In this document: positions 23,201-61,038 of the stretch, piece after piece
Layout: each line of letters begins with the position of its first letter
Numbering within the stretch: the stretch's first letter is position 1
Assembly (NCBI GenBank): GCA_921293015.1
Contig: OV121081.1
Span: forward strand, 78,323,022-78,387,021
Direction: 5' to 3'
Source: Phorcus lineatus
Taxonomy: Eukaryota > Mollusca > Gastropoda > Trochida > Trochidae
DNA: 64,000 nucleotides
Notes under the pieces: generated by a model
What the model saw: the letters and a program-made list of their open reading frames with translations, nothing else
The model's database searches: none
What the model was told of the DNA's origin: nothing
Position numbers and translations under genes: made by a program

Positions 23201-26200
23201 AAAATTATTGATGAAACATCATATCAACATATCGTTACTGAATTAGTGCTTGATTTGTTTAAAGTAATCTTCTGTTATTTTAGAAATCATCAACAAACCG
23301 TTCTAGATTCTTGAAGATGTTGACAGCTTCGTCTTTGTGAGTGAGCTGGAATGCCAAGGCTGCGTGATGGTTCTCCAGTACCGCTCTGAAACATGTGCGC
23401 ATCTCATGACTAGATAGACGGTATCAAAACAGTGTATAAAGATAAATCAAAATAGAAGCTGTTTGTTCTGATGCTTTTCATGCCATAAGAAACAAGGCAA
23501 GAGTTCACATATAAAATAGGGTTTCTTGTTTTAGAGGTCTCGTCCAAACCAAATCTCTAACTGAACTAATAACAGTATCATTTTGTAATGATATGAATAT
23601 AATATAAATCTCATGACAAATGACCAAAGCAATGTAAGGAGTTCATACACGTCATTGTAGAGGACTGCAAGGTTATTTCTGTCGTTGATTAGAAACGCAT
23701 TGGTCCTGGCGGGGTGGTCAACATCATGAATGACCGCTGCAATCAATGCAGCTACTTCATCTGCTTGGTCAAATACACTCTGTAACATGGAAATACATGG
23801 TATAGTATGTGGAATATGACACCTGAAAAAGGTGTTAAGGAACAGATCACTTAAGTAATTTCCAGCGATGTTATGAAACTGAGTACACACAGTGTCCTAG
23901 GAGTAAATATACTTACAGGAGTAAAAGTGTGCATGTAAGAAGGACATTAGATCAATAGGAATGGTTATTGCTAGGAAATCAACTGCAAAATATAAATAAC
24001 AACTCATGACCTTTTTTCCAAAATGCCTATTACAAACTCCTATGTTCAAAAGATTGTTCACATTCAGCCACCTAATTAAGGTTTCAAATGTTTTGTCATG
24101 CCACATTTAACATGAAATAATTTCCCAATACATGGTAAATGAAACATTAACATATTTTCCAACCACACTTTATGACACAGTATTACTATAGAAAGCATTG
24201 ACCACACCCACAGCAAACCCACTCTACACCCGGGCCTCATCAAGAATATGCAGATAGGGTGATCAACAATTCAACAATGTTACAAGTGTTTACTATCTTA
24301 GTTTATCAACACTCAACTGACCTTGACCCTTTCCCTCTCGAGGAAGAATGCGGTGGCGTGCAGCACATCAGCAGCGTGGGTGGAGTTGTGGTAGGGGTTG
24401 CACGAGTGGTAGCTCGCCTCTATTAGGTGCAACCAGTTTGTCAAACAGGTCTCACTGATGTCAAGAAACTCACACACCCCAAACCGTGTCAATATTTGTA
24501 ATCCTAAATAAACTAGAGGCCTGCAAAATAATTGGAAATTTTTTCATTAGAAAACCAACAATTTTGTTGTGTAGTTATTTTGAAGTTACCTGTAGGCGGA
24601 AGTTCTGCTGGTGGAAGTTTTGTTGTTGAAAGGAATTAAATATTGCAGACAATTATTTTGTGATATTCATCATCTTTATACCATAAGTATTTTTAGTTAG
24701 AAGGCAAGCTGACCAGTGTTTTGTCCTACCTCTTGTTGGTGACCTTCTCCAGTTCTATGATATGAAAGTCCCAGGTCTGCTCCTTCTGAAGGACCTCGAG
24801 GACTTCCTCCGAGATCTGGGAGAGGGCGGCTGGGTTAGACGGAATGTGAACATGAGGGTGATGATCTGTAATAGTAAAATACAGCTGATGATCTGTAATA
24901 GTAACATACGTGGTTATCTGTAAAAGTTTCATGAGGGTGGTGATCTGTAATAGTAACATATGGGTGATGTTACGAAATAGTAACATAACGGTGATAATCT
25001 GTAATATCAACAAAAGAGTGATGATCTTTATAAGGGACATAAGGGTGATGATCTTTATAAGGGATATAAGGGTGATGATCTTTATAAGGGACATAAGGGT
25101 GATGATCTTTATAAGGGACATAAGGGTGATGATCTTTATAAGGGACATAAGGGTGATGATCCGTGAAAACAACATAGGAGATGATCTGTAATAGTAACAT
25201 ATCGGTGATGTTATGAAATAGTAACATAATGTTGGTAATCTGTAATAGTAACATATAGGTGATGATCTGTAATAGTAACATATAGGTGGTGATCTGTAAT
25301 AGTAACATATGGGTGATGTTACGAAATAGTAACATAACGGTGATAATCTGTAATATCAACAAAAGAGTGATGATCTTTATAAGGGACATAAGGGTGATGA
25401 TCCGTGAAAACAACATAGGAGTAACATATCATATCGGTGATGTTATGAAATAGTAACATAATGTTGGTAATCTGTAATAGTAACATATAGGTGATGATCT
25501 GTAATAGTAACATATAGGTGATGATCTGTAATAGTTACAGAAGGGTGAGGAAATGTTATAGGTACATAAGAATGATGATCTGTATAAGGGACATAAGGTT
25601 GATGATCTGTAATAGTAACATAATGTTGGTAATCTGTCATAGGAAATAATAGTTATGATCTGTAATAGTAACATGGGGGTGATAATGATCTGTAATAGTA
25701 ACATGGGGGTGATGATCTGTAATAGTAACATGGGGGTGATGATCTGTAATAGTAACATAATGTTGGTAATCTGTCATAGGAAATAATAGTTATGATCTGT
25801 AATAGTAACATGGGGGTGATGATGATCTGTAATAGTAACATGGGGGTGATGATGATCTGTAATAGTAACATGGGGGTGATGATCTGTAATAGTAACATGT
25901 GGGTGATGATGATCTGTAATAGTAACATGGGGGTGATGATGATCTGTAATAGTAACATGGGGGTGATGATGATCTGTAATAGTAACATAATGTTGGTAAT
26001 TTGTCATAGGAAATAATAGTTATGATCTGTAATAGTAACATGGGGGTGATGATGATCTGTAATAGTAACATGGGGGTGATGATGATCTGTAATAGTAACA
26101 TGGGGGTGATGATGATCTGTAATAGTAACATAGGGGTGATGATCTGTATAAAGCACATACAGGTAGGGCTGAAACGGGTACAATTATTTAATACTCGAGT

Positions 26201-29200
26201 ACTCATAAAGTGTTACTCACGAGTACTCGAGTACTCGTCTGCGCAGCAGACACAACGAGATCGCGAAGTGATTGAGTAATGTAGGGGGGTGCGGGGGCAT
26301 GCCCCCCCGGGAAATTTTGAAAGTTAGAAGCTCTTAGACGCGTTTTCCTGGTCTTTAGAACGGTAATGAAGTTTTGTTTTTAGGTACCAATTTGAAGATA
26401 TCGAGGCGAGTTTTACAAAAATTATGACACCATCATTAATTCATCATACATTATTCTGAACTCATGAGGGTATTAAGATCGTATTGTTTGTAATTTACAA
26501 TATTTTAGTCCACAGAAAGAGAAATAAACTCCAGTTCCATTATTACATATATACTAAGATTCAACACAATGAACAGGTATTATGCTGTGGTTTATTCTCA
26601 TATTGGTAAGAACGCAAACACAAGATAACTTGCAACTCTCAATTTTAATACGTACGCTGCTGACAAGCATTAGCTTGAACACAATACATACTGCTGATTA
26701 GCATGAACAACCAACAAAACAAAAAACTCAAGTAACCATTACTTCTGTAAACTGTCAAATTATCGACTGAAACCCTACAGTTTACCGACTGAACCCAACA
26801 GTCTACAGCATGATTCAGTCACTTTCTAGCTTTAACTGTGGGAGGGCTGGCGCATTTCCCGAGGGAGTAACGTCTGCTGACGTCATAGGGCTGGATGCCG
26901 TAATGGCAGTTGATGCTTTGCTTGAACTTGCTTGTTGCCCTTCTTTTGTGGACAGAACACGCCTGAGATTCTTATTCAGGAAAATAATCGCATCAGCTGT
27001 GCTTGAATCCAGGGCCGAACGCTTAGAGGTAATTGTAAGTCCAGCGACTGAGAAAGCCCTTTCTGAACTCACACTCGTACCTGGCGTTGCAAGGTACTTT
27101 CTTGCCAAGGTTTGCAGTTTTGGATATCTGTATCCATTTTCTTTCCAAAATGTAAGCGACGTTTCACTCTTGACCTGATCCTTCAATTAGGTTTCAAGCT
27201 CGTCTTCGTCATTGTCGTCATCTGAAAGCTCAATGAGGTCACCCATGAGGTAAGCGAAGACATCATTGTCTTTCTGTTTCTTTGGTGCTGGGCTTCCATC
27301 ATCAAGGGGCTCCTGTTTCACTTGCAGGAGGCGGTAGGCACATCAAACGTTGACTTATGTTTCATCTTCAGATGGTTCCTCATAGTTGAGGTCGTCCCAC
27401 CCTTGAAGGATAGTTTTATTCCACAAATTGAACATTCAGTTTTAAGTTTGTCGTCAGTTAGTTTGAAAAAGGACCAAACGTTTGAACGGGATTGCTCCGC
27501 CATGTTGAGAGGGGAGATAACTCTTCTTTGCCGAGTACTCGAGTAGCAGTTTACTACTCGAGTAATGCTCCTACCCGCCTCGTACTCGAGTACCCGGGTA
27601 CCCGTTTCAGCCCTACATACAGGTGATGATCTGTAATCATGGGGGTGATAATCATTTGTTAAAACTGACAATGACCTCTTCATGGAATATTTGTTTTATA
27701 ATACACTAGCATGAAAAGTAAACAAAGTTAACAAATTTCATTGAATTGAATGTCCATTAACTCCATATTGTCAAAAAACCCAACTCACTTGACTTGGGTA
27801 TATGTGTGTCATGTCCTGATAGTCTACGCTTCATGTTTTGCTGAAAATGAAATTGAAAATGATTTTGACATTTATTAGTTTACAATTTGACTATAGCCAT
27901 CTTTTACTTGTAGTAGATTCTTGATTTAACCAAACAATTACAAATGATAAACCAGTAGCTTCTCATGTGAACAAGTGGGTTTAATACTTCACAAATTTTC
28001 AGTCTATTAAATTATGTTCAATTTTGGCTGTTAATATCATAATGATCTGTATATTCAGACAGAATGCACACAGTAATAACAGAGTTCCACTGTAAACATC
28101 TATATTAAGTATTAAATAGTATACGAAATAGTATAAATAAGTGAACACCTACGGACACTAGTCCCCCAACAAGGTCTGATGTCATGGGATCTTCATCCTT
28201 CATGCGTTGAGCGAAGTAGGGAGAGTAGAGCTCGCTGGTGCGGAGGATGTCCAGAGCCTTGTCCAGAGCCTGCACCACCGTCAGCGGACAGTTCTCCTGT
28301 GTGGCGTTGATTATGTTGATCACCTGAATAAAGATCGTTATCTCTTACATCATTGGAGCTAAATCATCTTTCAAAGTATAAACTCAAAGTTGGCCAGGAA
28401 AAGATATATTGTATTTATCGATTGGACATTGATCCACACTCAGTCTGTTCTTACAGTTATCATCCTGAGGAAAGAAGATTTCAGTGTGAACTTCCTAGTA
28501 GTTACTGTGTTATAGAACAGAGGTTATTTCTTAAGGAGAAACCGTGAAATGATTTAAACTGATTTTATTTCCAGATGGTACAGGAAAGGCAAAAAACAGT
28601 GTTGCCCCTACATATAAAGTTAAATCATTTGAGCCGGGATGGCAATGCCGTATGGAAAAAATCACAGAATTTTCTTATTGGCACCGGACTTTGTTTTTAA
28701 TAATGATTACAGTTTTGACAAATTTAATATCATGACAGAAATAGACATCGGATGTCAGACAGAAGACAGGTGGAAAATTAGCCATTTGGTCTGAATAGAT
28801 CAAAGATCAAATGAATGTACCTTAGTGATGGGAGCCTCAATAGTCATGGAGTGTATTCGAGCTAAGGACTCGCGTCGTTTGGGAAAGGCATGGATTCCAC
28901 CTGCAAAGAGAAAGAAAATGATGGGAATGTAGGATTGGGATTTATAATGTAGAACATGTGTAATGATAGAAAGTCTGTAAGATCATCATGTAAGCCTTAT
29001 TGTGTTTAATTCGGTGACAAGATTGAAATTAGTATTTACCTTTTTGTAATATGAGACTACATTAAATATAAAAGCTGACCAATTTCAAAGGCTATGACTT
29101 TTTCATAAACTTATGTACTAGTTTAGATGAGAACCAAGATAAAACAATGGAAATTAACAACCACTAATAACTGCTTCTCAATTTTCAGTATAAAGGGTGT

Positions 29201-32200: not shown

Positions 32201-35200
32201 GATCATATAATAGGAGATGACCATTCCTCACATGGTGGGGTGACAAGATGAGTGAACTACTTACCATTAGCAAGCTGTGTGTAGTCAGAGTCCTTGACTC
32301 GGTCCAGGTGCTGATAGAGATCGAGAGGTGCACTCCGGACTGACACAAACTGACATATCTTCCTGCAACACAACAGCAATAACATCTGTTACAGGTGTAT
32401 GGATGTCTGTATTGTGCATTAACAGAGATAACTATCATAAGCATTATGCATGAGAAGTATGTGGAGACAATGATATGAATATATTAGAGTCATAGTCTCA
32501 TTTTTGCAAGGCAAATTATAATGCATGCCGGACAAATAGTTCACCACTTACAGAAATCTTTCCCCTGACGTTTGCAACAATTTTCAGAACTCTGCAGGCA
32601 TTCTGGCCTTCAATAATGAAGTTCAAACTACCCTACCCTACCCTAATATTATGTCTTTGGCGAGCGTTAGTCCTTACCACGTCAAGGCCGTGACGAAGAA
32701 CACATAAAATTTCCCAGCTGAATATCCAGTGAAAATAGCTAATAGCTTACGCTTTTTCAAATAAAGAAATAACAAAAAGGTGGTAAACTCAATGGAGAAT
32801 GCATCTGTCATAAGTATCGGCGCTGCGATGATTAGATTTCCGGTGATTCGCACTTGCGATGGGATTGCACTTGATTTGGTACCTCATCGGTCTGAAACGG
32901 CATACGCCAATAAGCTGCTTCATCCAAAATTGTAAAACGGGCATAAAAATCTTTGCAAAGGCGACAGGAAATATTTGTTTTAGTGATCAGATTTTGTTCA
33001 TGAAGAATAATTAGTTCAGTTTAGTTGCCTTACAAAAATGAGACTATGACTTTAAGGCAACAGAGCACTAATTTGTATCTAACTCCATCATCAAGACCCT
33101 TCAACACATGTACCACCACTATGCGAGCTGTTTACCCCCTGGACCAAATGCTAGTTCCATTGTCTTATCCCTCAGGCAATAGTACTGATGCTTATCCAAA
33201 GCATCTCATACTGGTGCCACTTCCTTACCCCGTTTGTCCTAATACTGGTGACAAATGTTTACCCCGTTTGTCCTAATACTGGTGACAAATGTTTACCCAA
33301 CAGGGCCCAATACTGGTGCCAATAGAATTCAAATATTTCGCGTTTTTGTTAATGGAGTTTTTATTTCAATAAAATAATTACCCACTTTTTTTCGAAATGT
33401 TTTTTTTTTTTCAAAATGACTATTTTTCCCTTTCTATTAGATATTTCCCAATAACTGGTCTAGTATTGTTACAAAACAGTTACTATGCACTACTTTGAGG
33501 GTAGTTCTAAAACTACTCTGAGGGTAGAACTAAAACATCCAATCAAACAAGGAATTAAACTGACTTCAGTATTATGTCCTAATTGATGATAAGATGGGAT
33601 AAGCAGCCAGCAAGTTTCCTTTTTTTTTTTTTTGGTTACAAAATTTCAATTCAAGCCCCCCCACTTTCAAATTCGCTCCTACGCCCCTTGAGACTTGATA
33701 ATAATCACTTGTAAACATCGCTCTGATTGGATAAAATGAACGACTTCCGGGGAATTCCATCGGTATAGTAACCAATAACAGGGCTTTTAGCAATGGGATT
33801 TCCAGGTTTCGATTTATTTTTTTCAGGACATCATAATCAGACAATCAGCTAAGAACAATTTTTTTAACATTATGGAAACTTAAGTGTATAAGTATATGTG
33901 CGTGCAAAACACGCAGTTACAATATATTTTGCTTACTTACTTACTTAAGTTGAGAGTTTTACGAGCGCTTTCCAGCGATAGCTGATGTCATGCTCGGGTT
34001 ACATTTTGCGTGTTTATATAATTTTTAAAACACAGGTTTATGCGTTAACGCGAACACTGATACTGGTGCCACTTCCTCACCCCACAGGTCCTAATACTGG
34101 TGACAAATGTTTACCCAACAGGTCCTGGTACTGGTGTCACATGCTTACCCAATAGGTCCTGGTACTGGTGTCACATGCTTACCCAATAGGTCCTGGTACT
34201 GGTGTCACATGCTTACCCAATAGGTCCTGGTACTGGTGTCACATGCTTACCCAACTGGTCCTGGTACTGGTGTCACATGCTTACCCAACTGGTCCTGGTC
34301 CTGGTACTGGTGTCACATGCTTACCCATAAGGTCCTGGTCCTGGTACTGGTGTCACATGCTTACCCAACTGGTCCTGGTACTGGTGTCACATGCTTACCC
34401 AACTGGTCCTGGTACTGGTGTCACATGCTTACCCATAAGGTCCTGGTCCTGGTACTGGTGTCACATGCTTACCCAACTGGTCCTGGTACTGGTGTCACAT
34501 GCTTACCCATAAGGTCCTGGTCCTGGTACTGGTGTCACATGCTTACCCAACTGGTCCTGGTACTGGTGTCACATGCTTACCCAACAGGTCCTGGTACTGG
34601 TGTCACATGCTTACCCAACTGGTCCTGGTACTGATGTCACATGCTTACCCAACAGGTCCTGGTACTGGTGTCACATGCTTACCCAACTGGTCCTGGTACT
34701 GGTGTCACATGCTTACCCAACTGGTCCTGGTACTGGTGTCACATGCTTACCCAACTGGTCCTGGTACTGGTGTCACATGCTTACCCAACTGGTCCTGGTA
34801 CTGGTGTCACATGCTTACCCAACTGGTCCTGGTACTGGTGTCACATGCTTACCCAACAGGTCCTGGTACTGGTGTCACATGCTTACCCAACTGGTCCTGG
34901 TACTGGTGTCACATGCTTACCCAACAGGTCCTGGTACTGGTGTCACATGCTTACCCAACAGAATGTTGGGGGTACTCCAATGGCCCTTATGCTGGTACCA
35001 CCTACCTAACCCCCAATGCCATAATACTGGTTCCACATTCTAGACTCCAAGCGACCTACTGGTGTTCATTCTTTCATGTTTACCCCCCAGGTCTTAATAC
35101 TGGTGTGTCATGCTTACCCCCCAGGTTCTAATACTGGTGTGTCATGCTTACCCCCCAGGTTCTAATACTGGTGTGTCATGCTTACCCCCCAGGTCCTAAT

Positions 35201-38200
35201 ACTGGTGTGTCATGCTTACCCCCCAGGTCCTAATACTGGTGTGTCATGCTTACCCCCCAGGTCCTTATACTGGTGTGTCATGCTTACCCCCCAGGTCCTA
35301 ATACTGGTGTGTCATGCTTACCCCCCAGGTCCTAATACTGGTGTGTCATGCTTACCCCCCAGGTCCTAATACTGGTGCCACTCGGCAGTGATGAGGTATT
35401 GTTTCTCCACTTTTCCTCCGTGTGTGGTATGTGCCTTCCCAATACTGAAACAACATAGATATTAATAAACAAGGTTTTTTGGGTTTTTTTTTTTCAAATT
35501 TAGATTAGATTGCCAAACATAAATATTGTTAAAAACGGAACAGAATTTGGATTCATGGATATTTCAGAATATGTTAATTTTGAACGAAAATTCTAATGGT
35601 AACATACTTGTTTATTTCAGGGCAGTCTTAAACTACTGAGAAATCAAATTTAATTTCTAAAATTCATAACATTTTCCTTTTAATCCAAGATTATCAGTTC
35701 ATTTACATTCTTCTCTTGAGTTGCATAAACTGAAGTGTTTTAAGATCAGATGAAGACACTGAATAAATATTTGCAATTTATGAAACAGGACCAATCACCC
35801 AGCCAATCACCTGGTGGGTGGGTCTTTTCCAATTTCTCTATTTAATTTTTTTTGACCACATGGTATAACCAATGGGTATAATCATACTTTTGTGCTGGTT
35901 AGTTTTCAGGCTTGTTCAACAAGCTTATATGTGTTACCCTTGATGCAGTATCAATTTCTTAGCTTGAGATTTTCATTATAATTATTTCATGTTATGATTG
36001 TTGTTCACCTTTCCTTTCTTGAGTTGTCCGTTGATGGTTTCCTGTAGTTCTGGTTTGTTCTTGTCAGATCTAGCGAGTTCCCGCGAGTCACGACCACAGA
36101 CCTCCTCGCTTGTGTAGCCTGTCAATCGCTCGTAGCCATGGTTCACATACTGAAACGCATACAAAACAACGTCCATCATGAACCAACACTGTTGATGAAG
36201 GGGGTCGCACCAATCTTATGAAACAAGATCTAGCCATTCACTAGCCATTCACATTTGTTTTTTTCTGCACAACTTAAGATGTGCTATTTTTTTTTTAACA
36301 ATGTTTGATAGCAAACGCTATATATTAAGATGCCCAATAGAGTTGCACATCCAGGGAGAAGAGACATCAGAGGAATCTGACAGCTCGCTACATGACGCTA
36401 ATTGTACTTCCAAAACTCTCATCATCACAAAGGCGGTGCTAAAACATGATATAACGGTATACGGAGTAATTTGGGGTCATTTCAGGGCCACAGGTCATGG
36501 GGGTATCTGAGATATTGAAAGAGCGATTGAATGGGGTTTATCAATAAAGTGGCAAATTTTAGTCTCATTTTAATGAGATTGGGAGTCAAACCCAACATTC
36601 ATGAATAATAACACAGGGGACAACCTCCTTGGTAGGTGGCAAATATCTTTTTGTTATATTCATACCTGACGTCAGGATCATGAGATAAAACAAGTCTGAC
36701 AAAACCCTTTACAAGTAATTTTGCTGAATAGAGTACGTTTATTTCTGACTTCCTTTTTGCCGTCTTTCTAGTCAAAACATCCTCGCTATGAGTTGGGTTT
36801 GCAGGAAAATTCAGGGTGATTGACTAACATGTATAAATACAGAAAAAATATGGACAGTCTACACAATAATTGAAATGAGGATGCATCTCACACATGGGAA
36901 TCCTTCTCCAGATTCTAGTACAGACTCCCAAACATGGATACCAAAAAGAATTGAAATGACAGGGACTTTGTCATGGACACAGCTGTGGTTGAGCAAACTG
37001 AAATGACGAACCAATCACACACCTGTATTTCATTATCCTCATTGGTGACCTCAACAGCATCAGATATATTGTCTAGCGCTGTAAAGAGGGCGCTGCAAGC
37101 TTTCAACTTGATCTGGGAGCGCACCTCGCTGTACTCCAATGAGAGGAGTTCATTGATACAACAGCCTATATTAGAGTTCTCTGTGTATCTCTGAAAGTGA
37201 TCAACAGATAAACCAACAGATACATAACTCCTCAGAGAATTCTTACATAATTATCAATGTTTTTTTTTCAAATTCTTACATCGATAATTGTTAAGTTTTT
37301 CAAAAGAACCTTATGAAATATAAGATTATTTTATTTACCAAAAAAGCATTGAGTTTGTGAGGACATGATTATTAAAGATAGAGTTTTAAATTTCAAAACT
37401 GCTTTGTTTAACTTCAATTATCAATTAACATGTTAAAAAAATAAAAATATTTCCATTATATTTTGTAGCTCCTAATTTAATTCAATAAAACATTTTACCT
37501 ACCCTATTAAATCCTGATTTTAATAATGGTAAAATAGATGGTTCTTCTTTATCTGTTGTGCTGGAAATAAAAAATATCATTAGTACTATTTCAAATTCAA
37601 TATTTAAGGATTCAGCAGAAATGCTGAATCCTTATTGTTATTGGCGTGTTTTATTATTATTTTTTTTTTTTTTATTCCACGATTTTTGTGTACACGATTC
37701 AGCCCAAACCGCTAAAGCTATTACAGCCAAACTTGCCAGTCTGGTGGAGCTTCATGAGACGAAGCCACAATAAGCTTTTGGGCTTAATCGGCTTAAGCAT
37801 TAAAGGCACAGTACCATCCAAAGTTCGAAAAATTAACATGGGATTTTTTTTCAAAATGCACTTAGAGACTTGCAACTTGCTTGATACGATAGGCAATTAC
37901 ATTTTGAGCAAAAAAGTAAATCATGGCCAATTCCTAGCATGCATAGTTTGGCCGCCATATTGCTTTCATTGACTTTTTGAGATGCATCTTTAAAAATCTT
38001 CTTCTCTGAAGATACTTGCATCTAAGAGCTGAAACTCTCAAATCATGTAGCTGAGACATTGGGAATTTCAGGGTGATTCAGATTTTGATGTAAGTCAAAT
38101 ATTTTTTTCTCACCACTTCTTTGCAAAAACCGCAATATGCTTAGGAGATAAGGTCAGATGAAACTTGCTGCAGTAGCTTAATGCATGCTCTAATCCTCAT

Positions 38201-41200
38201 GAAACTTTCAGGGAAACTGGCTAACATCACTATGTTTCTACTGAATGTGTTTTTTTTTGCGCTGAATCCTTTTGTCGTCGCTTGCGACTATATTTAATAT
38301 TCCACTTGATGAAGGCATAAGCATGTACACTGAAATGTCATATATTTTCATAAAAGGCTCTTTTCCAGAAAAGTTTGCTTTAATTACATTTACAAATTTC
38401 CTTAAAAATATTAACTGACATACATGCTAATCTACTATAAGAAATCAGAGAAAAAATGTGGATACTTACTGTCGTTTTGTGACTGCAACTATTGTTGTAT
38501 GTTCACTTGCTTTGGTTGCTCTTATGGATCTAAAAATAAAATAAAATCTTTTTAGAACACAGATGCTCTTTTAAAGTAAAAAACTCCTTACCTTACCTTA
38601 CCTAAAAGTTGCCTTCCATTCAGAGAAAAAAAATTCAAAATGTTTGAAATTTTACTATTTTACTATATACTATTATCAATTTACTATTAAAGTTACTATA
38701 GTCACTCAAAATGAATTAATATCAATAAAGTGATACTGTGCATAATTTTTAAAGATACAAATCACTAAAAAGACATAAATAATGGATAAATGTAACAGTG
38801 TTTTGTAATTTAATCATGATTACCTTATCAGTTTCATGATAAATATTTTAGAACTGATATGTTTGAAAAAGATACTTCTTTGTCCTTATTTTTAAAAGTT
38901 GGACAATGAAATTAATGATTCTTAAACTCCATCTAACTATGGTGCCTAACAACTAGGTTTCTGGGGGAAAAAAAACAAAGATAGATATTTAAAAAGTTTA
39001 TCATCAAATATACCCGCTTTAGTTAAGATATCATTTGGCCCAAAAGGCTAAATAAGCTTAAAAGGAAAACCTAATTAAAAAGACCATCCATGAATTAAAA
39101 CAAGTCTTCAGAAGAAAATATCCTATCGATCCTCCAAAAGTCATCACAAACATCTCTGCAATCGTAAAATAAACATTTCTAGTAACACCATTGAGAAAAT
39201 TTTCAGATATAATGATGAGCTATTCTTGAGTTCTGCTCCAGAAATGAAGCGATCCTCATCCCAAAATGTAAATTCAAGTTGTTTCCATGAGATGAAAAAA
39301 AGCATAATTCAGAAATTTGTAAACATAAAAAAGGCACCACTTCAGTAGGTGCATGCAAAGTTTCAGAAAATAGTTCTGCATGGGAAACAAAGATATCCAT
39401 AACAAGAGTCCATCTTCAACTTCCATGGGAAAAAATTCCAAAAGTTTGAATTTTTTTTATTGTTAGGCACATTTGCAAAGTTTCAGAAAGATTTCATAAA
39501 AAGTTTTTTTAGTTCTGACCCCGAAGCAACTCATTTCATGCAAACAAAAAATACTGAAATTGTAAGAAATCTGAAAATATCAAAGGCACCCAGTGACTTC
39601 AGTAGATGGGATACTTATATTCATGCAAAGTTTCAAAAATATTTACTGGAAGGTTTTGAGTTCTCCTCCAGAAAAGAATTGATTACAGATTGACCGGTGG
39701 AAGGACTGACATACAGGGTAATGACTATAACCTTCTGTATTAAAAACTGATTGGATAAAAATATCATTTTTATTATTTCAAAAACATCACTTATTCTTAT
39801 AACAAAATTTATTACATTAATGGCATAAATCTTATTGATAATGAAGTCATTATTCTTACTTTGACAGATCTGATTTATGATCACCAATATTCTAATATTG
39901 ATGATCTCCAGAAAACATGTTGTTTTAGAATAAGGAGTGAAAAAATAAATATGGAAAAATATTCTAAAATCATTTCTATTGAGATCAGATTTTCACAAAA
40001 ACAACCAAAAATAGTATTGATAAATTGCTAGTTGTCATGACAACAACAAAAATAGCTTTTTTCCATTTATTGCTCTATAGGTCAATGCCATGTATCAATG
40101 GAAATCCACACGTCAAAACATCCTGCACAATATCTATGAATCATAGAGACTTAATCTCACCAATCAACATAAATATCAATAATAGGGAATGAACAACATT
40201 CGCATTTCTTTACAATTGACAATGTGTTCAGCTGTCTTACTAAAGGTCTGTTGAATATGTATGGTGCCTTTAACTCTAAAACTCAATAATATTTCTGCAT
40301 GTTATCTGTTTCCCCCGCATGTTCTCTGGAAAGCCAATAAATAATAGAGATAATATAACCAAATAACATAACAACCACAATCAATGTCTTGCGAACAATG
40401 TAATCTAGGTATCGCAAATAACTAATAATAAAGGAGGTCTAAAAATACATCCTTGTCGACCCCCTCTAAAGATTACCTTCAAAACCTAGGCTTGTAAGTA
40501 TTGTACTTTTGCTAAAAGAAGACGTAGTATTAAAATTGCAATATATGACACAGCTTTAGTGATATGAATAAAAAGTTTCTCTAGCATGAAGTAAATGTCA
40601 ACCAATTTATCATTATCTTTCAGAGTAGGTTCATGTGTGTGCCCCTAATATTAAGAATCAATCACCTCCAAGATCAGGATTAAGTATACAATGTGTTACA
40701 TGTAATTGAAAACCGAAATAGGCTTTATGGGGGTCATTTTTGCACAGTTAAATACACATCTTGAATGTGAATTCAATAAATTGTTGTCATTTTCAACTAT
40801 ACATATATATAATATATATGTGTATGACAATCATATAGCTTCTTGTACAATATTACTGTTCAAATTTTGTGAAACTTTTGAAAAATTTGAAAACTCTGAA
40901 TTCTTAATCAATGATGTTGCAGAAATCTAAAGGTTGAGGAAAAGATTTTAACGAACAACAAATCAACCGTAATCAGCAAATCTTAATCTCGTTCTGAAAA
41001 TTCCTCAAAAGTGATCACAAAGTCAAGTGATTACAAATCGGGAGATGGATCGATTGAGCGAACATGATAGCCATAAGGCAGTCATAGAAACTTTCATATT
41101 TTATTGATTAACTGTCAAAGCTAACCAAACCCATGGCAGCAATGGTGGCATTTGCAGACACAAGAATGATGTCTCTTAGAGATTCCCAATTACTTCATGA

Positions 41201-56200: not shown

Positions 56201-59200
56201 TTCCATTTGCTGGAGTAGCAGTTGACTGCAGTTATTGATTCATGTCATTTATTACATATTTCAAAACTCATCCTGCAAATCTAATTAGTCATCAATTCAA
56301 AACGCTGGCAGAACTATTTTTATCACAAAAAGAAAGTGTAACTGTTATGTGGTTCTAACAAGGAAACAGTTTTCTCACCTTATCAAATTGCTTTATAGTC
56401 CTATTATCTACCTGTTTGAAACATGAACTGGGTTAATGTACCCAATTAAACTGGAACATTGTAAAACTACCTGGTAGAACAAACAAAAATGTACATGTTT
56501 GAAAACAAGTGTTTGATGTGTATCCATGGTACTTTCTCAATGTTAACTACTGTAGATGTATACACTTTAAAAGATAATCATAAACACCATTCATTAATTA
56601 ATGAAATTAACAGAACAAGTTTTGTCTGTTGCCGTATACTTTTAAGATATCTCCAAAATTCTACACTGGCTAGATTTTAAACCATTTCTTAGACTTCATC
56701 TGATAAAAAAAAACTCCCTCTCGTAGACAAGCAAACTCTCTCTTTTCCTGCAGAGCACTATTAAGACAGTTTTAATTTTAACATTATTCTCATAATGATA
56801 GGAATAGTCCTTTAAAGGTATCTAAAATTACTAAAGAAGATATTTGAAACAAATGGATACGAATAAAAGCATCCCGAATTTCACCACATCATTAATTGTG
56901 AAACAGGTACAACTATATAAAAAGTCTTGAACATTGTTTACCATGACTCAGAAACTTGGAACTCAGATAACCTCTTCGTACTTATGTTTGGAATTATTTT
57001 GACCCAGCTTTGGTAAAAGAAATCTGGCAAATTACCATTTTCTGTCTGACGAATAATGAGTCTAAGCATCATGTACTCTCGTAAAGTCCTGAAAAAACTG
57101 TTTCGCCTTATTGTTTCATCATTCATAAATCCAGGTAATTGTTCTAAACAATGTCAAGGTGTGGTTTTGTTCAAAGATTAGATAAATTTATATATTCAAA
57201 CCTCACTGCAAGGCTTGTAGAAACATATGACAGAGGAGCTACACTTGTTTCTGTGCTTTATGGTATGTTGAAGTTGTTAAAAGGGCAGAAACACTTTAAA
57301 ACCGTCAAATATTTCATGGTGCTTGTTTATAGGCGTGTAAAGATATATAACCTGGAAGAGAGGAAGAATGACAGGATATGATAAAGTGGCTCTGTTGTCA
57401 AGCATCCACTCATTGTTCATCACTTTGGTAAAAATTCTTAAAAACATTATACCCTAGAAATGACAGTGTTGGGGGTCGCTGCTTCCCTATTTGGTAGTAA
57501 GCAATATTGGGATTAAACATCATGTTGATCAATAATTGTTACTGTCACCAGTTACTAAGTTACTAGGATAATTTTAAGTCTAATATTTTGGTATATTGTG
57601 GAAGGTTTTAAAGGTGCTGCCTTCATACCTGACTGTGAACATTACAAGCTTAAATAACTGGAGGCTACTGTTGCTATTATAAAAAAAAAATTAAAAATCA
57701 ATTAAAGATTTTGATTTACAAATTTTCTGAATTCTTAGGAAATATCACCAGAATGTTTTGATTATGGCTCAGGTCATTACTACTCATGTCTGTGGGTGAG
57801 AAGATAGGTTATGTGAATACTTTAATCTCCTGTTCAGATAGCCTCAAGGGCTCCAAACCTCCTGATCCTTTAATAACTCAAGAGGAGCCCTAAAATAGGT
57901 CTGTTTGACTCCTATTATCTGACCAATTCACCTCATGCTCATTTTAGACACACTTTGGGTTATTTCCAGAACCTGAACAGGTTTTAAGATAAAACTGGAT
58001 TAAACATATTTGAATCCCCATTGTTCAAATTTTAGTTTTATAGCAACAAGGAAACTTATAAGTTTGTTCGATTTTTTATATTGTAAATTCTAAGATAAAT
58101 TTACTGACTGAATCTAGCCATAATGAAAATGTTCTTAAGGCAAAAACTTTAAACAAATAAACATGTTTCTTAATGGTTTTGATAGGTCAACCAATTTGGT
58201 ATAATTTAAGGAATGAAGCCTTTCCTTAGAAAAGACATTAACCTTAAAAGGCTGCAACATATCATAAAAACCTTTAATTCATTACAGTAATTTATTTCAA
58301 CAATCTATAATCATTAAAACTTCATACAATTGCCACCTTGTATTGGAATACGGAATTCTCAAATTAAATTGTGATGCTTTCACTCCAAGATCCTTAAGCA
58401 AAAAAAAATATTTTGAATCTTTAAATCAGCATTGCTTCTTAACATTCCTCTTTGTTTTAGCATGCCATCACCATGAATCCAAGATTTCAATTTTCATCCC
58501 AAAATAGAACTCATTTGCTCTCAATTGGCCATTCATATCCATCAACCTGGGAACTAAGCCTTATGAAGAACTCAGCAATCACAATGGAGACATCTTTCAC
58601 TCAATGCTAATGCATTGTACAAGTCACATCTCAGATACAACATATTGTCATCTAATATCTGATAACAAATTTTATCACTTTTATGGCAGTCCAATGCAAA
58701 AAAAAAGAGTTATTTTTGATGATGGCTGTAATTGAAGGCAATGTGGCAACGCATAGATAAGGAGGGCGCAGGGTACTGATTATCTCCCCTGGAATTCTCG
58801 CTGCTCGTAAATGACGAATCTTCCGAGACCAAGGCTCGTAATCTCAGTGACGCCAGTTCCTCAATGCCGATTTTCTTTGATTTTATTGATGACAGGGGTG
58901 GACTAGAGGCAAGGACAGGCCTATTATCAGAGCTGTCTCCTCGATTTTCTGTCTCAACCTAGACAGGCATATCATGAGCTCTAAGTCCACGATCTCCTCT
59001 CCTCTTAAAGACACCCTTCAGGAGTTCGTGCCCTTTCTTTTACTTGCAGGGGTAAAGGTCAGCAGACTAAAAATAGTGTTATAAGTTCACTCTGCAGACT
59101 TATGTTCAGAAGCACCGAGCTGTAATTTCACTTTGCAGACTAAAGATCTGAGAGACATTACTGTAGATTGCGTAGAGTGCAACAAAGATCAGAAACATAA

Positions 59201-61038
59201 TGTTGTCATTTCACTTTGCAGACTAAAGGTCAGAGACATAATAGTGTAGATTGCATAAATTGCAAACCAAAGATCGGAAGTAGAATGTTGTCATTTCACT
59301 CTGCAGACTAAATGTCCTGAAATATCGTGCTGTATGACTCTGCAGACTTAAGATTAGAGATATATTACTTAGGGTGCATATCAAAGATCAGACATAGAAT
59401 GTTGTCATTTCACTTTGCAGATAAAGGTCCGAAGTATTAAGCTGTAATTTCACTTTGAAGGTTAAACATCAGAGACCTAGTACTGTAGTTTTGCACAGAG
59501 CGCATATCAAAGATCAGATGTAGAATGTTGTCATTTCACTTTGTAGACTAAAGGTGAGTTGGCGTTTAACGCCGCTTTCAAGATTATTTCACTTATATCG
59601 CGGCTGCTAGTATTATTGCAGGGAGAAAGCCCGCAACACCATTGTAGCTATGCATTGTGGTGAAACTTGCGAGCATCGGCTGGAACTAGCGAACCATGGG
59701 TGGTACTGCGCTGAATTTCAGTGCAGCATTGCACCCAAACCTGACTGCGTGTAGAACAGTTCTCTACTGCAGACAAAGTTGCTGAGCCCCTGGCGGAATT
59801 CGAACCACGGACCTCCTGATCCGAAGCCGAACGCGCTAACCACTGCGCTATCCCGCCCCCCCTTGTCCTTTAGTTTCACTTGGAAAGCTAAAGATCGGAG
59901 ACAAAAGAAATATTGTTTTGCTTAAAATGTTTATCAAAGATCAGAAGCAAAGTGCCATATTTTCACTTTGCAGACTAAAGTTAAAAAGATTTGTTCTGTA
60001 TTTCACTTTGCAGACTAAAGTTAAAAAGATTTGTTCTGTAATTTCACTTTGCAGACCCAAGTTAAAAAGTATTGTTCTGTAATTTCACTTTGCAGACTAA
60101 AGTTAATAGATATAGCATTGTTGTTAAGCTAAGATTGCATTTCACAGATCAGAATCAAAGTGATATTAATCCACTTTGCAGACTAAAGTTAAAAAGAATT
60201 GTTCTGTAATTTCACTACCAGACTAAAGATCAGAAGCACAATGCTTCAGTTTCACTATGCAGTCCAAAGCATTGTTATGTAACTCCATTTTGCAGACAAA
60301 AGATAAACAATTTCTTTGTCTTTACTTTTTCATTATAGAGACTAAAGAGACAAAAACAGAGTACTTTAAGTTTTTAAACTAGGGACCATAACCATATGCA
60401 AGCTAAACATGAAGAAATGTTATTGGGAGATATCATTGAATTACTCCCAATTAAGAATTCAAAGCAAGAAATATTCTGACAAAGAAATTAAATGTCCATT
60501 TCTAAATAAGATATATTTGCCCTTTTCAGCAAGTGCATTTATTTCATAGTGAGACTTATTGTAATGAATTATATTTCAATATAATAACCCATATTTTCTG
60601 CAGAGAAAATAAATCATTTGTGTTCTGCTGACAGTTCTTGGCTTTTGCCATGCAAGGTCACTTCACTATTAACAGAATAACAATCCAAAATGCTTGTGAT
60701 TAAGAGTAAAACCAAAGGATGATTAAATAATTAGTGAAACATACACACTACACACACTATAAGAAACCAGTGGAATACATTAAGAGGATCATAAAATAAT
60801 TCAATCCTGTTCCCTTGCACTTGGTGCTGGTATATTAAAATTTGCTGAGTCAACAAATTTGAAACGGATGAAATTCATTATGGGGCATCCTTCAAAATTA
60901 TGACTTTGGAACAACCCCACAAAAGAGTTGTTGAACCTGTCCTTCACAAAGTAAATATCAAAAGTGAAATATTTTACTTACCGACATTGTGTGTTGGCGT
61001 AATTTCATAGGTCCGAATGATATATCATTTTCCGAGCT
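20112..61038 (-). CDS. PDE8: PDE8-family cAMP-specific phosphodiesterase (19 exons, 5' end missing)
   Basis: High-affinity, IBMX-insensitive enzyme family that hydrolyses cAMP to AMP. Nineteen exons join to 775 codons with every phase matching; residue numbers below count from the first codon seen. Residues 8-105: receiver-like domain ([30 protein letters not shown]). Residues about 140-265: PAS domain ([42 protein letters not shown]). Linker with PKA-type sites RRES (S299) and RRLS (S379), then [20 protein letters not shown]. Catalytic domain about 405-730: HNSTH with general acid H478 and metal ligand H482, HDVDHP with H518/D519, CADVSNP with D648, and the purine-clamp glutamine Q700 and F703 (PKSQLSF). 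A charged Lys/Glu tail follows. About 60 N-terminal residues, including any myristoylated MGC start, are not seen. PDE8A and PDE8B cannot be told apart here; an invertebrate would have a single PDE8. Confidence 0.96.
20908..21037 (-). CDS. PDE8: PDE8 exon 18
   Basis: 43 codons plus one base. Reads [18 protein letters not shown] then [20 protein letters not shown]; carries the invariant glutamine that orients the purine ring. Confidence 0.96.
21869..22030 (-). CDS. PDE8: PDE8 exon 17
   Basis: 54 codons, phase 0 at both ends. Contains [20 protein letters not shown], where the Asp after CA is a metal ligand, then [13 protein letters not shown]. Confidence 0.96.
22496..22634 (-). CDS. PDE8: PDE8 exon 16
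   Basis: One base plus 46 codons. Reads [20 protein letters not shown] then [16 protein letters not shown]. Donor GTAAGT. Confidence 0.96.
23087..23143. repeat. Fragment of a SINE-like tail
   Basis: GAGCGAGTTTTTGTTCAGCG, then TTGGGCAATATTTCAG and ATTAGTAGCA. It resembles the fragment at 47526-47586 and the reverse-complement tail of the SINE at 59552. Short and degraded. Confidence 0.5.
23299..23385 (-). CDS. PDE8: PDE8 exon 15
   Basis: 87 bp reading [19 protein letters not shown] then AVNIFKNLE. Holds the NHHAALAF signature. The donor (CG|GTTTGT) is weak. Confidence 0.95.
23649..23779 (-). CDS. PDE8: PDE8 exon 14 (HD motif)
   Basis: 43 codons plus two bases. Contains [20 protein letters not shown], the metal-binding His-Asp pair of HD phosphodiesterases. 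Phase fixes the donor at GTATGA, giving LYND-V-AVLE across the junction. Confidence 0.96.
24322..24520 (-). CDS. PDE8: PDE8 exon 13 (catalytic HNSTH)
   Basis: One base plus 66 codons. Contains [19 protein letters not shown] and [20 protein letters not shown] with the general-acid His and first metal ligand. Acceptor ATTTTGCAG. Confidence 0.96.
24730..24865 (-). CDS. PDE8: PDE8 exon 12, start of catalytic region, next to acceptor array
   Basis: Two bases, 44 codons, two bases. Reads [20 protein letters not shown], then [16 protein letters not shown], the segment before the catalytic core (human EEYWDFDIFELE). Phase from exon 11 and the frame through TWDFHI place the acceptor at TACTATTACAG|AT. 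Its first about 17 bases and the preceding intron bases are the repeat unit of the adjoining minisatellite, so many equivalent acceptors lie upstream. Confidence 0.85.
24863..26163 (-). repeat. Minisatellite made of repeated 3' splice sites of PDE8 exon 12
   Basis: Roughly three dozen head-to-tail units of 27 or 30 bp. On the gene strand a unit reads ATCATCACCCCCATGTT followed by ACTATTACAG. That is the first exon-12 bases plus the intron end with the acceptor AG. The true junction (24866/24865) is the terminal unit. Subtypes: TTATAAAG|ATC units (25020-25150), 30-bp units with ATCATCATCACC (25660-26140), and units broken by TTATTTCCTATGACAG. Because units are multiples of three, the frame of exon 12 stays open upstream to about 25175. 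An hAT element interrupts it at 26164, and one or two units continue at 27624-27650. Confidence 0.92.
26815..27300 (-). pseudogene. hAT transposase C-terminal dimerisation domain (fragment)
   Basis: Reads [20 protein letters not shown], a stop, then the hATC signature: [40 protein letters not shown], and [10 protein letters not shown] near the end. This is the C-terminal block of hAT/ZBED transposases. It has a premature TAA between the acidic spacer and the hATC block, and the RNase H-like catalytic core is missing upstream. Confidence 0.92.
27318..27503 (-). pseudogene. hAT transposase BED zinc finger (N-terminal fragment)
   Basis: Starts at ATG 27503 ([10 protein letters not shown]) and contains C-x2-C (ECSICGIKL), then [11 protein letters not shown], the C2HxH pattern of a BED finger that binds transposon ends. 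It runs to a stop at 27318, where an internal deletion joins it out of frame to the C-terminal part. Confidence 0.92.
27789..27840 (-). CDS. PDE8: PDE8 exon 11 (52-bp micro-exon)
   Basis: 17 codons plus one base, reading [21 protein letters not shown] is a PKA-type site, and the position matches LRRLSG in human PDE8A. Acceptor TTTTCAG, donor GTGAGT. It was not visible as an open frame and was found from phase and homology. Confidence 0.85.
28153..28323 (-). CDS. PDE8: PDE8 exon 10
   Basis: 57 codons, phase 0. Reads [20 protein letters not shown], then [15 protein letters not shown], then DLVGGLVS. Two overlapping donors exist (CC|GTAGGT and TAG|GTGTTC); only the first keeps the frame with exon 11. 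Confidence 0.94.
28821..28900 (-). CDS. PDE8: PDE8 exon 9
   Basis: Two bases plus 26 codons: [20 protein letters not shown] then EAPITK. RRES is a consensus PKA site; [14 protein letters not shown] is near-identical to vertebrate PDE8. Confidence 0.96.
29446..29598. repeat. Candidate small inverted-end element
   Basis: TCATTGGCGGATCCAGAG at one end and CTGAGTTTGCCAATGA at the other share about 8 bp of inverted repeat. A GGATCCAG-type end with CATTGG flank also occurs near 53245-53265. Weak evidence, no target duplication established. Confidence 0.3.
30835..32018. repeat. Satellite array of about 83-bp dimeric unit, about 14 copies
   Basis: Each unit has two related halves that both start GTGACATGACATATC: one continues CTTGGCCAAATAT.TCACATT, the other TTAGGGCAAAATATCACATT then TCCATG. 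Copies from about 31080 on are nearly identical, while those at 30840-31050 are shorter and diverged, so the array grew away from the left edge. It lies inside PDE8 intron 8, about 250 bp from exon 8, and does not include a splice junction. Confidence 0.95.
32265..32362 (-). CDS. PDE8: PDE8 exon 8 (end of PAS domain)
   Basis: One base, 32 codons, one base. Reads [20 protein letters not shown] then [12 protein letters not shown]. The first residues are the last PAS strand (human KIRHYVSI). Donor GTAAGT. Confidence 0.95.
33120..35355 (-). repeat. Minisatellite made of repeated 5' splice sites of PDE8 exon 7
   Basis: Unit mostly 34 bp (some 40). On the gene strand it reads CACCAGTATTAGGACCTGGG, GG, then GTAAGCATGACA: the last about 22 exon-7 bases plus the first intron bases, donor GT included. 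Nine almost perfect units with GTAAGC at exact 34-bp spacing lie at 35070-35360. A second subfamily (GGTACCAGGACCAGTTGGGTAAGCATG type), about 25 units, fills 34100-34965. Diverged copies occur at 33140-33310. About 750 bp of other sequence at 33310-34050, including a transposon fragment, splits the array. Long open frames here on the + strand are repeat artefacts. Confidence 0.93.
33570..33694 (-). mobile_element. Truncated second copy of the CAGGGG element
   Basis: The reverse complement matches 16044-16170: AAGGGGCGTAGGAGCGAATT, the G7 run, GAAATTTTGTAACC, an A run (15 here), then AAGGAAACTT. It lacks the other terminus. Confidence 0.8.
35356..35444 (-). CDS. PDE8: PDE8 exon 7 (PAS domain), next to donor array
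   Basis: 29 codons plus two bases. Reads [20 protein letters not shown] then RVAPVLGPG, matching human EWQGIYYAKKKNGDN...IIPVIGQGG. The donor GG|GTAAGC at 35355 is the first of the tandem series. Staying in the exon past it meets TAA at once (GGG TAA), so only this donor gives full-length protein. Confidence 0.93.
36009..36149 (-). CDS. PDE8: PDE8 exon 6 (PAS domain)
   Basis: 47 codons, phase 0. Reads [20 protein letters not shown] then [13 protein letters not shown], the PAS helices and G-x-T-x-E-E motif. Confidence 0.96.
37023..37190 (-). CDS. PDE8: PDE8 exon 5 (start of PAS domain)
   Basis: 56 codons, phase 0. Reads [40 protein letters not shown], then [11 protein letters not shown], very close to vertebrate PDE8. 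Confidence 0.96.
37503..37560 (-). CDS. PDE8: PDE8 exon 4
   Basis: One base plus 19 codons: [19 protein letters not shown], matching human DREELSVMPFISAGFTR. Donor AGG|GTAGGT. Last part of the receiver-like domain. Confidence 0.93.
37606..38275. repeat. Candidate dispersed element with GGATTCAGC-type ends
   Basis: The left edge has a 12-bp-arm palindrome (AAGGATTCAGCA...TGCTGAATCCTT, 37608-37634), and GCGCTGAATCCTTTT recurs inverted at about 38260. The inside is non-coding, with a GTACGATTCAGCCCAAACCGC-like motif. It lies in PDE8 intron 3. Limits and family uncertain. Confidence 0.35.
38470..38529 (-). CDS. PDE8: PDE8 exon 3
   Basis: One base, 19 codons, two bases: [19 protein letters not shown], matching human SIRSSKLSENTVIVGVVRR. 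Donor GTAAGT. Part of the receiver-like domain. Confidence 0.93.
38530..42347 (-). other. PDE8 intron 2
   Basis: 3.8 kb, GT-AG. At 39320-39720 two related copies of CAAAGTTTCA-containing sequence (TTCAGTAG.TG, TTCATGCAAAGTTTCA) look like an old dispersed repeat. At 41925-42200 three loose copies of AATCTTTAACCTTTAACAAC plus CAGCAGCCATC occur. No coding sequence seen. Confidence 0.6.
42348..42538 (-). CDS. PDE8: PDE8 exon 2 (receiver-like domain)
   Basis: 63 codons plus two bases. Reads [40 protein letters not shown], then [12 protein letters not shown] and DAEALCR. The fold resembles bacterial response-regulator receivers; in mammals this region binds Raf1 and regulates the enzyme. Confidence 0.95.
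46150..47320. repeat. Diverged tandem array, about 165-bp unit
   Basis: Recurring blocks in fixed order: CCCTGACTGATATACTTCAT, GGACAC.TGTGAATCAAGTCT, TGAAGCACCA, AATAGATTTCTTC, ATCTCACA.ACATCTATGAAT, TAACTTGGCAAAATGGTGAT. About seven copies, many substitutions, so an old array with no open frame. Confidence 0.85.
47526..47586. repeat. Fragment of a SINE-like tail
   Basis: GAGTGAGTGAGTTATTGTTT, AGAGCGGCC, AATAATTCAGCCATTAGTAG. Same type as 23087-23143, ending at the same ATTAGTAG point. Confidence 0.5.
51785..51979. repeat. Three-copy 63-bp tandem repeat
   Basis: Three almost identical 63-bp units (GAACATAAAGCAATGAGGCT ... CTACGCTGCCGGGCTA) plus a partial fourth start. GC-richer than the surroundings. 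Because 63 is a multiple of three the + strand frame stays open ([16 protein letters not shown] repeated), which I take as a by-product. Confidence 0.95.
52435..52553. repeat. Two-copy 57-bp tandem duplication
   Basis: TTTCATATAACTGTTTCACA, TACACTGGACTCAATTCACA, TCAGATAAAACATCTTC occurs twice back to back with no visible difference, so a recent duplication. Confidence 0.95.
53130..53268. repeat. Possible MITE remnant
   Basis: G-run GGGGGGTGGGGGGTCACCC near 53153, then CTCCCCTGGATCTGCCACTG at 53246-53266. CAGTGGC-GATCCAGGGGAG is a common animal DNA-transposon terminus; the other end was not found. Confidence 0.3.
58740..59050. other. CpG-richer block inside PDE8 intron 1
   Basis: About 300 bp with clearly higher GC and CpG than neighbours, in the style of the PPIB promoter region. 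It could be an alternative promoter or first exon of PDE8, or an inserted element. No ATG frame splicing in phase with exon 2 was established. Confidence 0.25.
59060..60290. repeat. Irregular tandem array with ATTTCACTTTGCAGACTAAAG core
   Basis: The core TTTCACTTTGCAGACTAAAG or close variants recurs at least a dozen times, with variable spacers often containing AGATCAGAAGCA or TTAAAAAGATTTGTTCTGTA. Three nearly identical 41-46-bp units stand at 59965-60105. A SINE has landed inside (59552-59857). Confidence 0.85.
59552..59857 (-). mobile_element. tRNA-Arg-derived SINE
   Basis: On the - strand a tRNA-like head starts GGCGGGATAGCGCAGTGG at 59857 with an A box (TAGCGCAGTGG), an anticodon region CTTCGGATCAGG (TCG anticodon, as in tRNA-Arg) and a B box (GTTCGAATTC) near 59795-59804, so it would carry an internal Pol III promoter. 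A non-tRNA body follows, ending GCGGCGTTAAACGCC then AACTCACC. That tail type is widespread in molluscan SINEs as I recall. No clear target duplication. Confidence 0.88.
60982..61038 (-). CDS. PDE8: PDE8 exon 1 of those seen
   Basis: 19 codons, phase 0: [19 protein letters not shown], matching human VQFGPMRFHQDQLQ, just before the receiver-like domain. It is preceded by a real acceptor (CTTTTTCAG), so at least one more 5' exon exists. Confidence 0.9.

Follow-up and report, generated by a model that had tools for sequence, protein, structure and literature searches.

The closest described systems are the 'mirages' of amphioxus, tandem duplications across the boundary between an exon and an intron, located on the 5′ or the 3′ side of the exon, that were described in Adh3 and in the globin genes BflGb6 and BflGb9 (PMC3087553). 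According to that source, the units measure 10-72 bp in Adh3 and ~150-160 bp in the globins, AG or GT signals are present in many copies, the clusters are unstable in length and their edges escape homogenisation. Regular splicing is reported there to be undisturbed, and boundary arrays are proposed as raw material for new introns (PMC3087553). In human, the 31-bp VNTR of CBS, c.1444_1467+7(16_21), is composed, judging by its name, of 24 exonic and 7 intronic nt in 16-21 copies, and the title of a reference cited with it (b22) links it to reduced enzyme activity (PMC2630376). Internal tandem repeats of ~30 bp are described in human duplicated genes, where some lie at splice boundaries and can create or move splice sites, or create introns (PMC2812944). 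A different phenomenon is the intronic minisatellite of C. elegans, reported to be linked to genes in which splicing choices are numerous (PMC4039745). A search of open-licence papers by title and abstract found no mollusc junction array.

The array analysed here belongs to the trochid topshell Phorcus lineatus. It is located on chromosome 1, in a stretch of 64 kb hereafter called the window, inside a minus-strand gene that is PDE8: Pfam matches to PDEase_I, PDE8A_N and PAS were obtained, and the best homologue, P0001, is 83% identical across the whole 692-aa model and maps onto the exons in order, from 61038 to 20115. Exon numbers are those of the initial annotation. Searches of the genome covered 957,807,699 bp in 74 contigs. 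The relevant part of the gene is organised as follows.

27789..27840, minus strand: PDE8 exon 11, ending in phase 1, with a GTGAGT donor.
24866..26143, minus strand: acceptor array made of 46 units, which measure 25-43 bp and mostly 27 or 30 bp, from TRF and unit lists.
24866..24867, minus strand: AG of the likeliest exon 12 acceptor, with a phase that fits exon 11 and with the support of protein homology.
24730..24865, minus strand: PDE8 exon 12, an open frame with acceptor TATTACAG/ATCAT and donor AAGAG/GTAGGA.

We propose, with a probability of roughly 0.78, that this array is a tolerated junction minisatellite of the mirage kind, at the limit between intron 11 and exon 12, and that the transcript is spliced at the copy closest to the exon.

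The presence of a splice-junction minisatellite before exon 12, first noticed in the initial annotation, was confirmed. With a score of 904, TRF detected 46.8 copies of a 27-bp unit at 24849-26148, together with overlapping rows of 30, 178 and 230 bp, the last two being higher-order. Between exon 12 and the hAT element described below, 46 units were cut out, the exonic copy being kept separate and four double-length pieces being split by hand. Each unit associates an intron 11 end like TTACTATTACAG with an exon 12 start like ATCATCACCCYCATG, and a typical one reads ATCATCACCCCCATGTTACTATTACAG on the coding strand. Unit lengths were 27 bp (31 units), 30 bp (9), 26 bp (3), 25 bp (2) and 43 bp (1), so that the claim that units are multiples of three is right for 40 of the 46 units and wrong for the other 6. 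The units end in ACAG in 32 cases (true acceptor included) and in AAAG in 6 cases, and 8 ends have no AG. An AG is therefore kept at 38 of the 46 unit ends, in agreement with the 'about three dozen' potential acceptors counted earlier.

The exonic half of the repeat unit corresponds to the first ~17 nt of exon 12, as had been suggested. When these 17 nt were compared to the array, a local score of 14.5 was obtained, against a maximum of 10 in 200 shuffles, and 11 other exon starts gave scores of 4.5-7.5. A comparison of 296 junction-array pairs in the window, in which two exon 2 junctions and one exon 3 junction were 1-3 bases off, yielded two standouts: the 27-bp array paired with the acceptor of exon 12, at 28 of 40, and a 34-bp array paired with the donor of exon 7, at 40 of 40. 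The best pair beyond these two reached 13.5. We conclude that what is repeated is the junction of intron 11 with exon 12.

Copies are not equally similar to each other. The mean identity was 0.816 for the distal 20 units and 0.73 for the proximal 26 units, and the exonic copy was 0.689 identical to the other units, this comparison of a diverged edge covering the exon side of the array only. Neighbouring AGs of the array are 25-97 nt apart (most of them 25-54), with one extra AG, 24884, 8 nt below 24892; the AGs listed are followed by AT, and one by CT. Inside exon 12, the segment 24816-24839 contains a TCTAAC site (24834-24839), then a pyrimidine-rich tract and an AG at 24816-24817; a junction of exon 10 with a start at 24815, exon 11 being skipped, would keep the frame and lose the RRLSG segment.

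The upper end of the array had been set at 26163. This position is merely the edge of a transposon insertion, and the array resumes beyond it.

26164..27615, minus strand: hAT-type DNA transposon of 1,452 bp, with ends and duplication found by eye, and from Pfam.
27616..27653, minus strand: upstream remnant of the array beyond the hAT element, GATTATCACCCCCATGATTACAG/ATCATCACCTGTATG, by direct reading.

The inverted ends of the element are TAGGGCTGAAACGGGTAC, and the 8-bp target duplication CCTGTATG is found at 27616-27623 and 26156-26163. Pfam recognised zf-BED and hAT dimerisation pieces. Among the 72 pieces listed as genome matches, most have 94-100% identity, which indicates that the family moved recently, and several cover most of the element at 96-99% identity. 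Since the element was inserted inside the array, the acceptor array predates this insertion.

Homologous proteins were informative on the origin of the repeat. At the segment where exon 12 starts in the window, P0001 reads THHPHAHIPSSP, and across the exon 11/12 join at 24865 it has HDTHIPKTTHHPHAHIPSSPTALTQ, for which the window gives the corresponding His-rich peptide. A related His-rich, HxHIPSSP-like segment occupies the same place in P0001, in Patella (P0002) and in other molluscs. By comparison with the mollusc PDE8 proteins, exon 12 begins at 24865, within the last unit, and the earlier statement that the acceptor of exon 12 lies within the repeat unit was thus correct for the acceptor that fits homology. 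The His-rich start shared by the mollusc homologues indicates that the start of exon 12 is inherited, and that the repeat copies it. As homology places this start inside the last unit, the array was seeded by the gene's own junction. Of 120 homologues, 118 have between 52 and 69 aa in this region, with 60 aa in P0001 and, by the same gaps, 60 aa in the window; the two homologues with a short region (31 and 35 aa) look truncated. No repeat insertion was seen in the 38 homologue alignment rows examined (P0001-P0037 and P0049).

The core unit is unique to this locus. Its exact matches numbered 16 in the genome, all of them in this array, and one of them is the true junction, whereas the reversed core unit, used as a control, gave 0 exact matches. 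Dispersed copies at many loci, of the kind left by a satellite, were absent from these exact matches over the whole genome. These results bear on an exonisation scenario, in which a pre-existing satellite would have provided the start of exon 12. The position of this start within the repeat is in line with such a scenario, but other mollusc PDE8 proteins have the His-rich start too and the core unit has no exact match elsewhere, which makes its probability close to negligible.

The higher-order blocks, and the contrast between a homogeneous distal part and a diverged proximal part, fit with local tandem growth. Under the mirage reading, a short stretch across the junction, ~10-13 nt of intron and 17 nt of exon, would have been duplicated in tandem, and the array would then have grown block by block, perhaps by slippage, or by unequal exchange. 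Growth would have been confined to the intron side, where the protein stays unchanged. A near-exclusive use of the proximal acceptor at 24865 is predicted, the other copies leaving with the intron. This acceptor would be kept in use because exon definition presumably pairs it with the donor of exon 12, at 24730. If an upstream copy were occasionally chosen, a stop codon would follow and, probably, nonsense-mediated decay.

To describe the products of the upstream copies, each upstream AG between 24866 and 26150 (n = 39, one of which, 24884, lies within a unit) was joined to exon 11. In frame products without a stop were found for 1 AG of the 39, and a stop was met within 7-66 codons in the 38 others. 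Two features of the array are concerned.

24893..24894, minus strand: AG of the single upstream acceptor from which the exon stays open and in frame, with an exon start at 24892, 27 nt and 9 aa being added.
24893..24917, minus strand: 25-bp unit that shifts the frame of the array against exon 12, by frame reading.

The 38 stops are due to this 25-bp unit, to the other units whose length is not divisible by three, and to stops present in variant units. The initial annotation had expected the opposite, namely that the choice of nearby upstream acceptors would add in-frame peptides of the HHPHVTITD type just before the catalytic domain. Most units are indeed multiples of three, and 24892 would add its 9 aa in frame, but it is alone in doing so, and no insertion of this type exists in the homologue rows examined; the frame count rejects such a peptide ladder, and this reading is very unlikely. 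The frame of exon 12, said to be open up to 25175, was found open up to 25355. This does not help, because the frame of the array shifts at 24893-24917. We conclude that the array fails as a coding extension.

Is the true acceptor stronger than its copies? With a small weight matrix, made from the 18 other acceptors of the gene, the true acceptor scored 6.2, above 7 of these 18. Scores at least equal to that of the true acceptor were found for 20 of the 39 array AGs, compared to 60 of 1,642 (3.7%) intronic AGs outside arrays. As first noted, the array is a row of acceptor-like sites, most of its copies having a fair acceptor. A version of the matrix with pyrimidine/purine classes, in which one site was taken at 38528 for 38529 and two acceptors were missing, gave 17 of 39, compared to 3.9% of 462. 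As the true acceptor is no stronger than the copies, its selection is not accounted for by sequence strength alone. The idea that the AG-free stretch of the true acceptor is abnormally short was also considered, and rejected: this stretch is 17 nt long, but the 19 acceptors of the gene span 15-146 nt.

The same scores allow us to judge whether exon 12 starts at another AG, outside the unit, at 24829 or 24815. The start at 24829 keeps the frame, with 12 aa less, but its score is merely 2.8. The one at 24815 has the top score between 24731 and 24892 (9.6) and is preceded by the branch-like TCTAAC. Skipping of exon 11 would leave this start in frame, but its junction with exon 11 causes a frameshift. 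Both would remove the conserved His-rich segment, and a start at either position is highly improbable.

A more regulatory role can be imagined for the copies. They could act as decoys that compete with the true acceptor, the loss of PDE8 mRNA, in the form of transcripts with a stop, being set by the number of repeats or by splicing factors. The stops that follow 38 of the 39 upstream AGs and the 20 AGs that score like the true site are what such decoys would look like, and the CBS VNTR offers a case of a 31-bp boundary repeat linked to reduced enzyme activity in human (PMC2630376). However, 13 of the 26 proximal unit ends have no AG or now have AAAG, a situation that neutral decay fits as well as selection against decoys, and no sign of selection for keeping decoys was seen. 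We consider this role unlikely.

A sister structure of the same anatomy is present at the other standout junction of the gene, the donor of exon 7, and speaks in favour of the mirage reading, as do two apparent donor arrays described below.

35356..35444, minus strand: PDE8 exon 7, which contributes its last ~20 nt to the unit of the donor array.
33220..35355, minus strand: donor array with a unit of 34 bp, formed by the end of exon 7 plus GTAAGCATGACA, from TRF.

TRF reported rows at 34057-34959 and 35074-35377, and diverged rows at 33225-33322. Exon 7 ends with CACCAGTATTAGGACCTGGGGG/GTAAGC, and 34-bp copies of this donor junction follow; P0001 is identical to the window across exons 7/8 (21 residues). 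The pattern of the donor array has 21 matches in the genome, all of them here. Of the 38 donors listed, only the true one, at 35356, is productive. The acceptor array had been presented as the opposite of this donor array, the latter leading to frameshifts. The two arrays are not opposites, because nearly all sites are unusable in both (productive: 1 of 39 upstream acceptors, 1 of 38 donors). The gene contains five arrays, two of which extend over an exon edge, a result equalled by 0.24% of 20,001 random placements, in a test that is post hoc, concerns one gene and uses an exon list from which exon 2 (42538-42348) is absent.

A third junction array in the window was sought among the 83-bp and 41-bp arrays, but was not supported. 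The likeness of the 83-bp array to exon 8 was within that of shuffles; the 41-bp array gave 13.5 with the exon 11 acceptor, compared to a maximum of 11.5 in 60 shuffles. At 59120-60106, a PDE8 intron contains a 41-bp repeat that has diverged and in which units of the CTGCAAAGTGAAATTACAG type abound, with a weak likeness to the exon 11 acceptor.

We then considered arrays elsewhere in the genome. Arrays with a period of at least 15 and at least 3 copies numbered 9 in the 64-kb window, and 11 in fourteen 10-kb stretches (13 random draws and one at a round coordinate). In the whole genome, triple GGTAAG yielded 4,132 matches versus 4,390 for the reversed control, and triple TTTCAG 5,675 versus 1,971, counts being made per match and not per array. 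As single hexamers in 140 kb, GGTAAG was found 33 times versus 54 for GAATGG, and TTTCAG 154 times versus 85 for GACTTT. The excess of triple TTTCAG is thus accompanied by one of the single hexamer. Given that triple GGTAAG is not in excess over its control, junction arrays probably do not represent a large share of all minisatellites.

Five further arrays (L033-L037) were taken from among the triple-GGTAAG matches listed, in the first 9.7 Mb of contig 1. They are not a random sample, the choice having been made by eye, on the basis of donors preceded by AG or of short and regular units. Two of the five, L033 and L034, abut an apparent exon end, and no recognisable exon was found at the array edge of L035-L037.

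C1:3209000-3212500, minus strand: L033, apparent exon-edge donor array of 31/40-bp units, ~33 copies, from reading frames.
C1:4740000-4743200: L034, apparent exon-edge donor array of 36-bp units, ~14 copies, from reading frames.

In L033, where the unit ends with CATTGTACAG/GTAAG, the preceding exon and a later one join in phase. A score of 37.5 was obtained for the junction (maximum of 13 in 200 shuffles), and among 26 GTRAG sites counted the true one alone is productive. The gene has transmembrane-like exons. In L034, the unit, ending with CCATTACAG/GTAAG, follows a 424-nt exon; this exon and a long second one are joined in phase, for a continuous frame of ~459 aa; the junction scored 19, compared to a shuffle maximum of 13.5. 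The proteins of both loci had no Pfam match above the cut-off (for L034, FANCI_HD2 was at E 0.039). The best PDB matches had E values of 0.47 for L033 and 1.1 for L034 (1.7 for a shorter L033 piece), and NCBIfam, searched for L033 only, gave E 0.014, far below the cut-off. A protein search with L034 returned no homologue, a result in which the length filter may hide longer ones. Both loci are thus judged from reading frames only.

These two apparent donor arrays suggest that junction arrays are recurrent. A broader proposal would be that junction minisatellites recur in the snail genome, and that the paired PDE8 arrays constitute a drain on productive mRNA that depends on copy number. It is built on four arrays at three loci, two of these arrays being judged from their reading frames, and we regard it as improbable. 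If it were true, tens of equal decoys in two introns would determine which share of the cAMP-phosphodiesterase mRNA is productive, and the number of repeats would tune cAMP signalling while leaving the protein untouched.

Public RNA-seq and HiFi reads are listed for this assembly (PMC10444997), which makes tests of the mirage reading cheap. They comprise poly(A) RNA-seq from muscle, ERR10377999, and the HiFi sets ERR7254638 and ERR7254639; an alternate haplotype is available as GCA_921293055.1, and assemblies of Steromphala cineraria and Gibbula magus are published. The locus offers a natural case in which to study how one acceptor is chosen by the spliceosome among ~40 similar copies, when a wrong pick ruins the protein.

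Competition between neighbouring acceptors is known from NAGNAG tandem acceptors, in which the competing AGs are 3 nt apart, whereas spacings of 8-97 nt separate the AGs that precede exon 12. Recursive splice sites are serial sites in one intron where the AG is directly followed by GT; in the array, by contrast, AT or CT comes after the AGs listed, never GT. The human internal tandem repeats differ by their ~4 copies on average, their location in primate segmental duplications and their transcript support, as described in PMC2812944. Like the CBS VNTR, the exon 7 array has a donor-side unit that spans the exon end and the intron start; the exon 12 array differs from it in being on the acceptor side, and the CBS repeat is polymorphic in people (PMC2630376). 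The likeness is closest with the amphioxus mirages: the unit of the PDE8 array spans the exon-intron boundary of its host gene, copies keep their AG, and homogenised inner units coexist with diverged units at the exon-side edge. In amphioxus, RT-PCR and variation in repeat number were examined, whereas the Phorcus PDE8 array is known from one assembly; the latter is found in a mollusc and has 46 copies, compared to 6 and 3 in two BflGb6 haplotypes (PMC3087553), and PDE8 carries an acceptor and a donor array in one gene. The amphioxus phenomenon is thereby carried into a mollusc, with a copy number above that of the globin cases. We conclude that the PDE8 array is of an already known kind, and is unusual in its copy number and in its pairing with a donor array.
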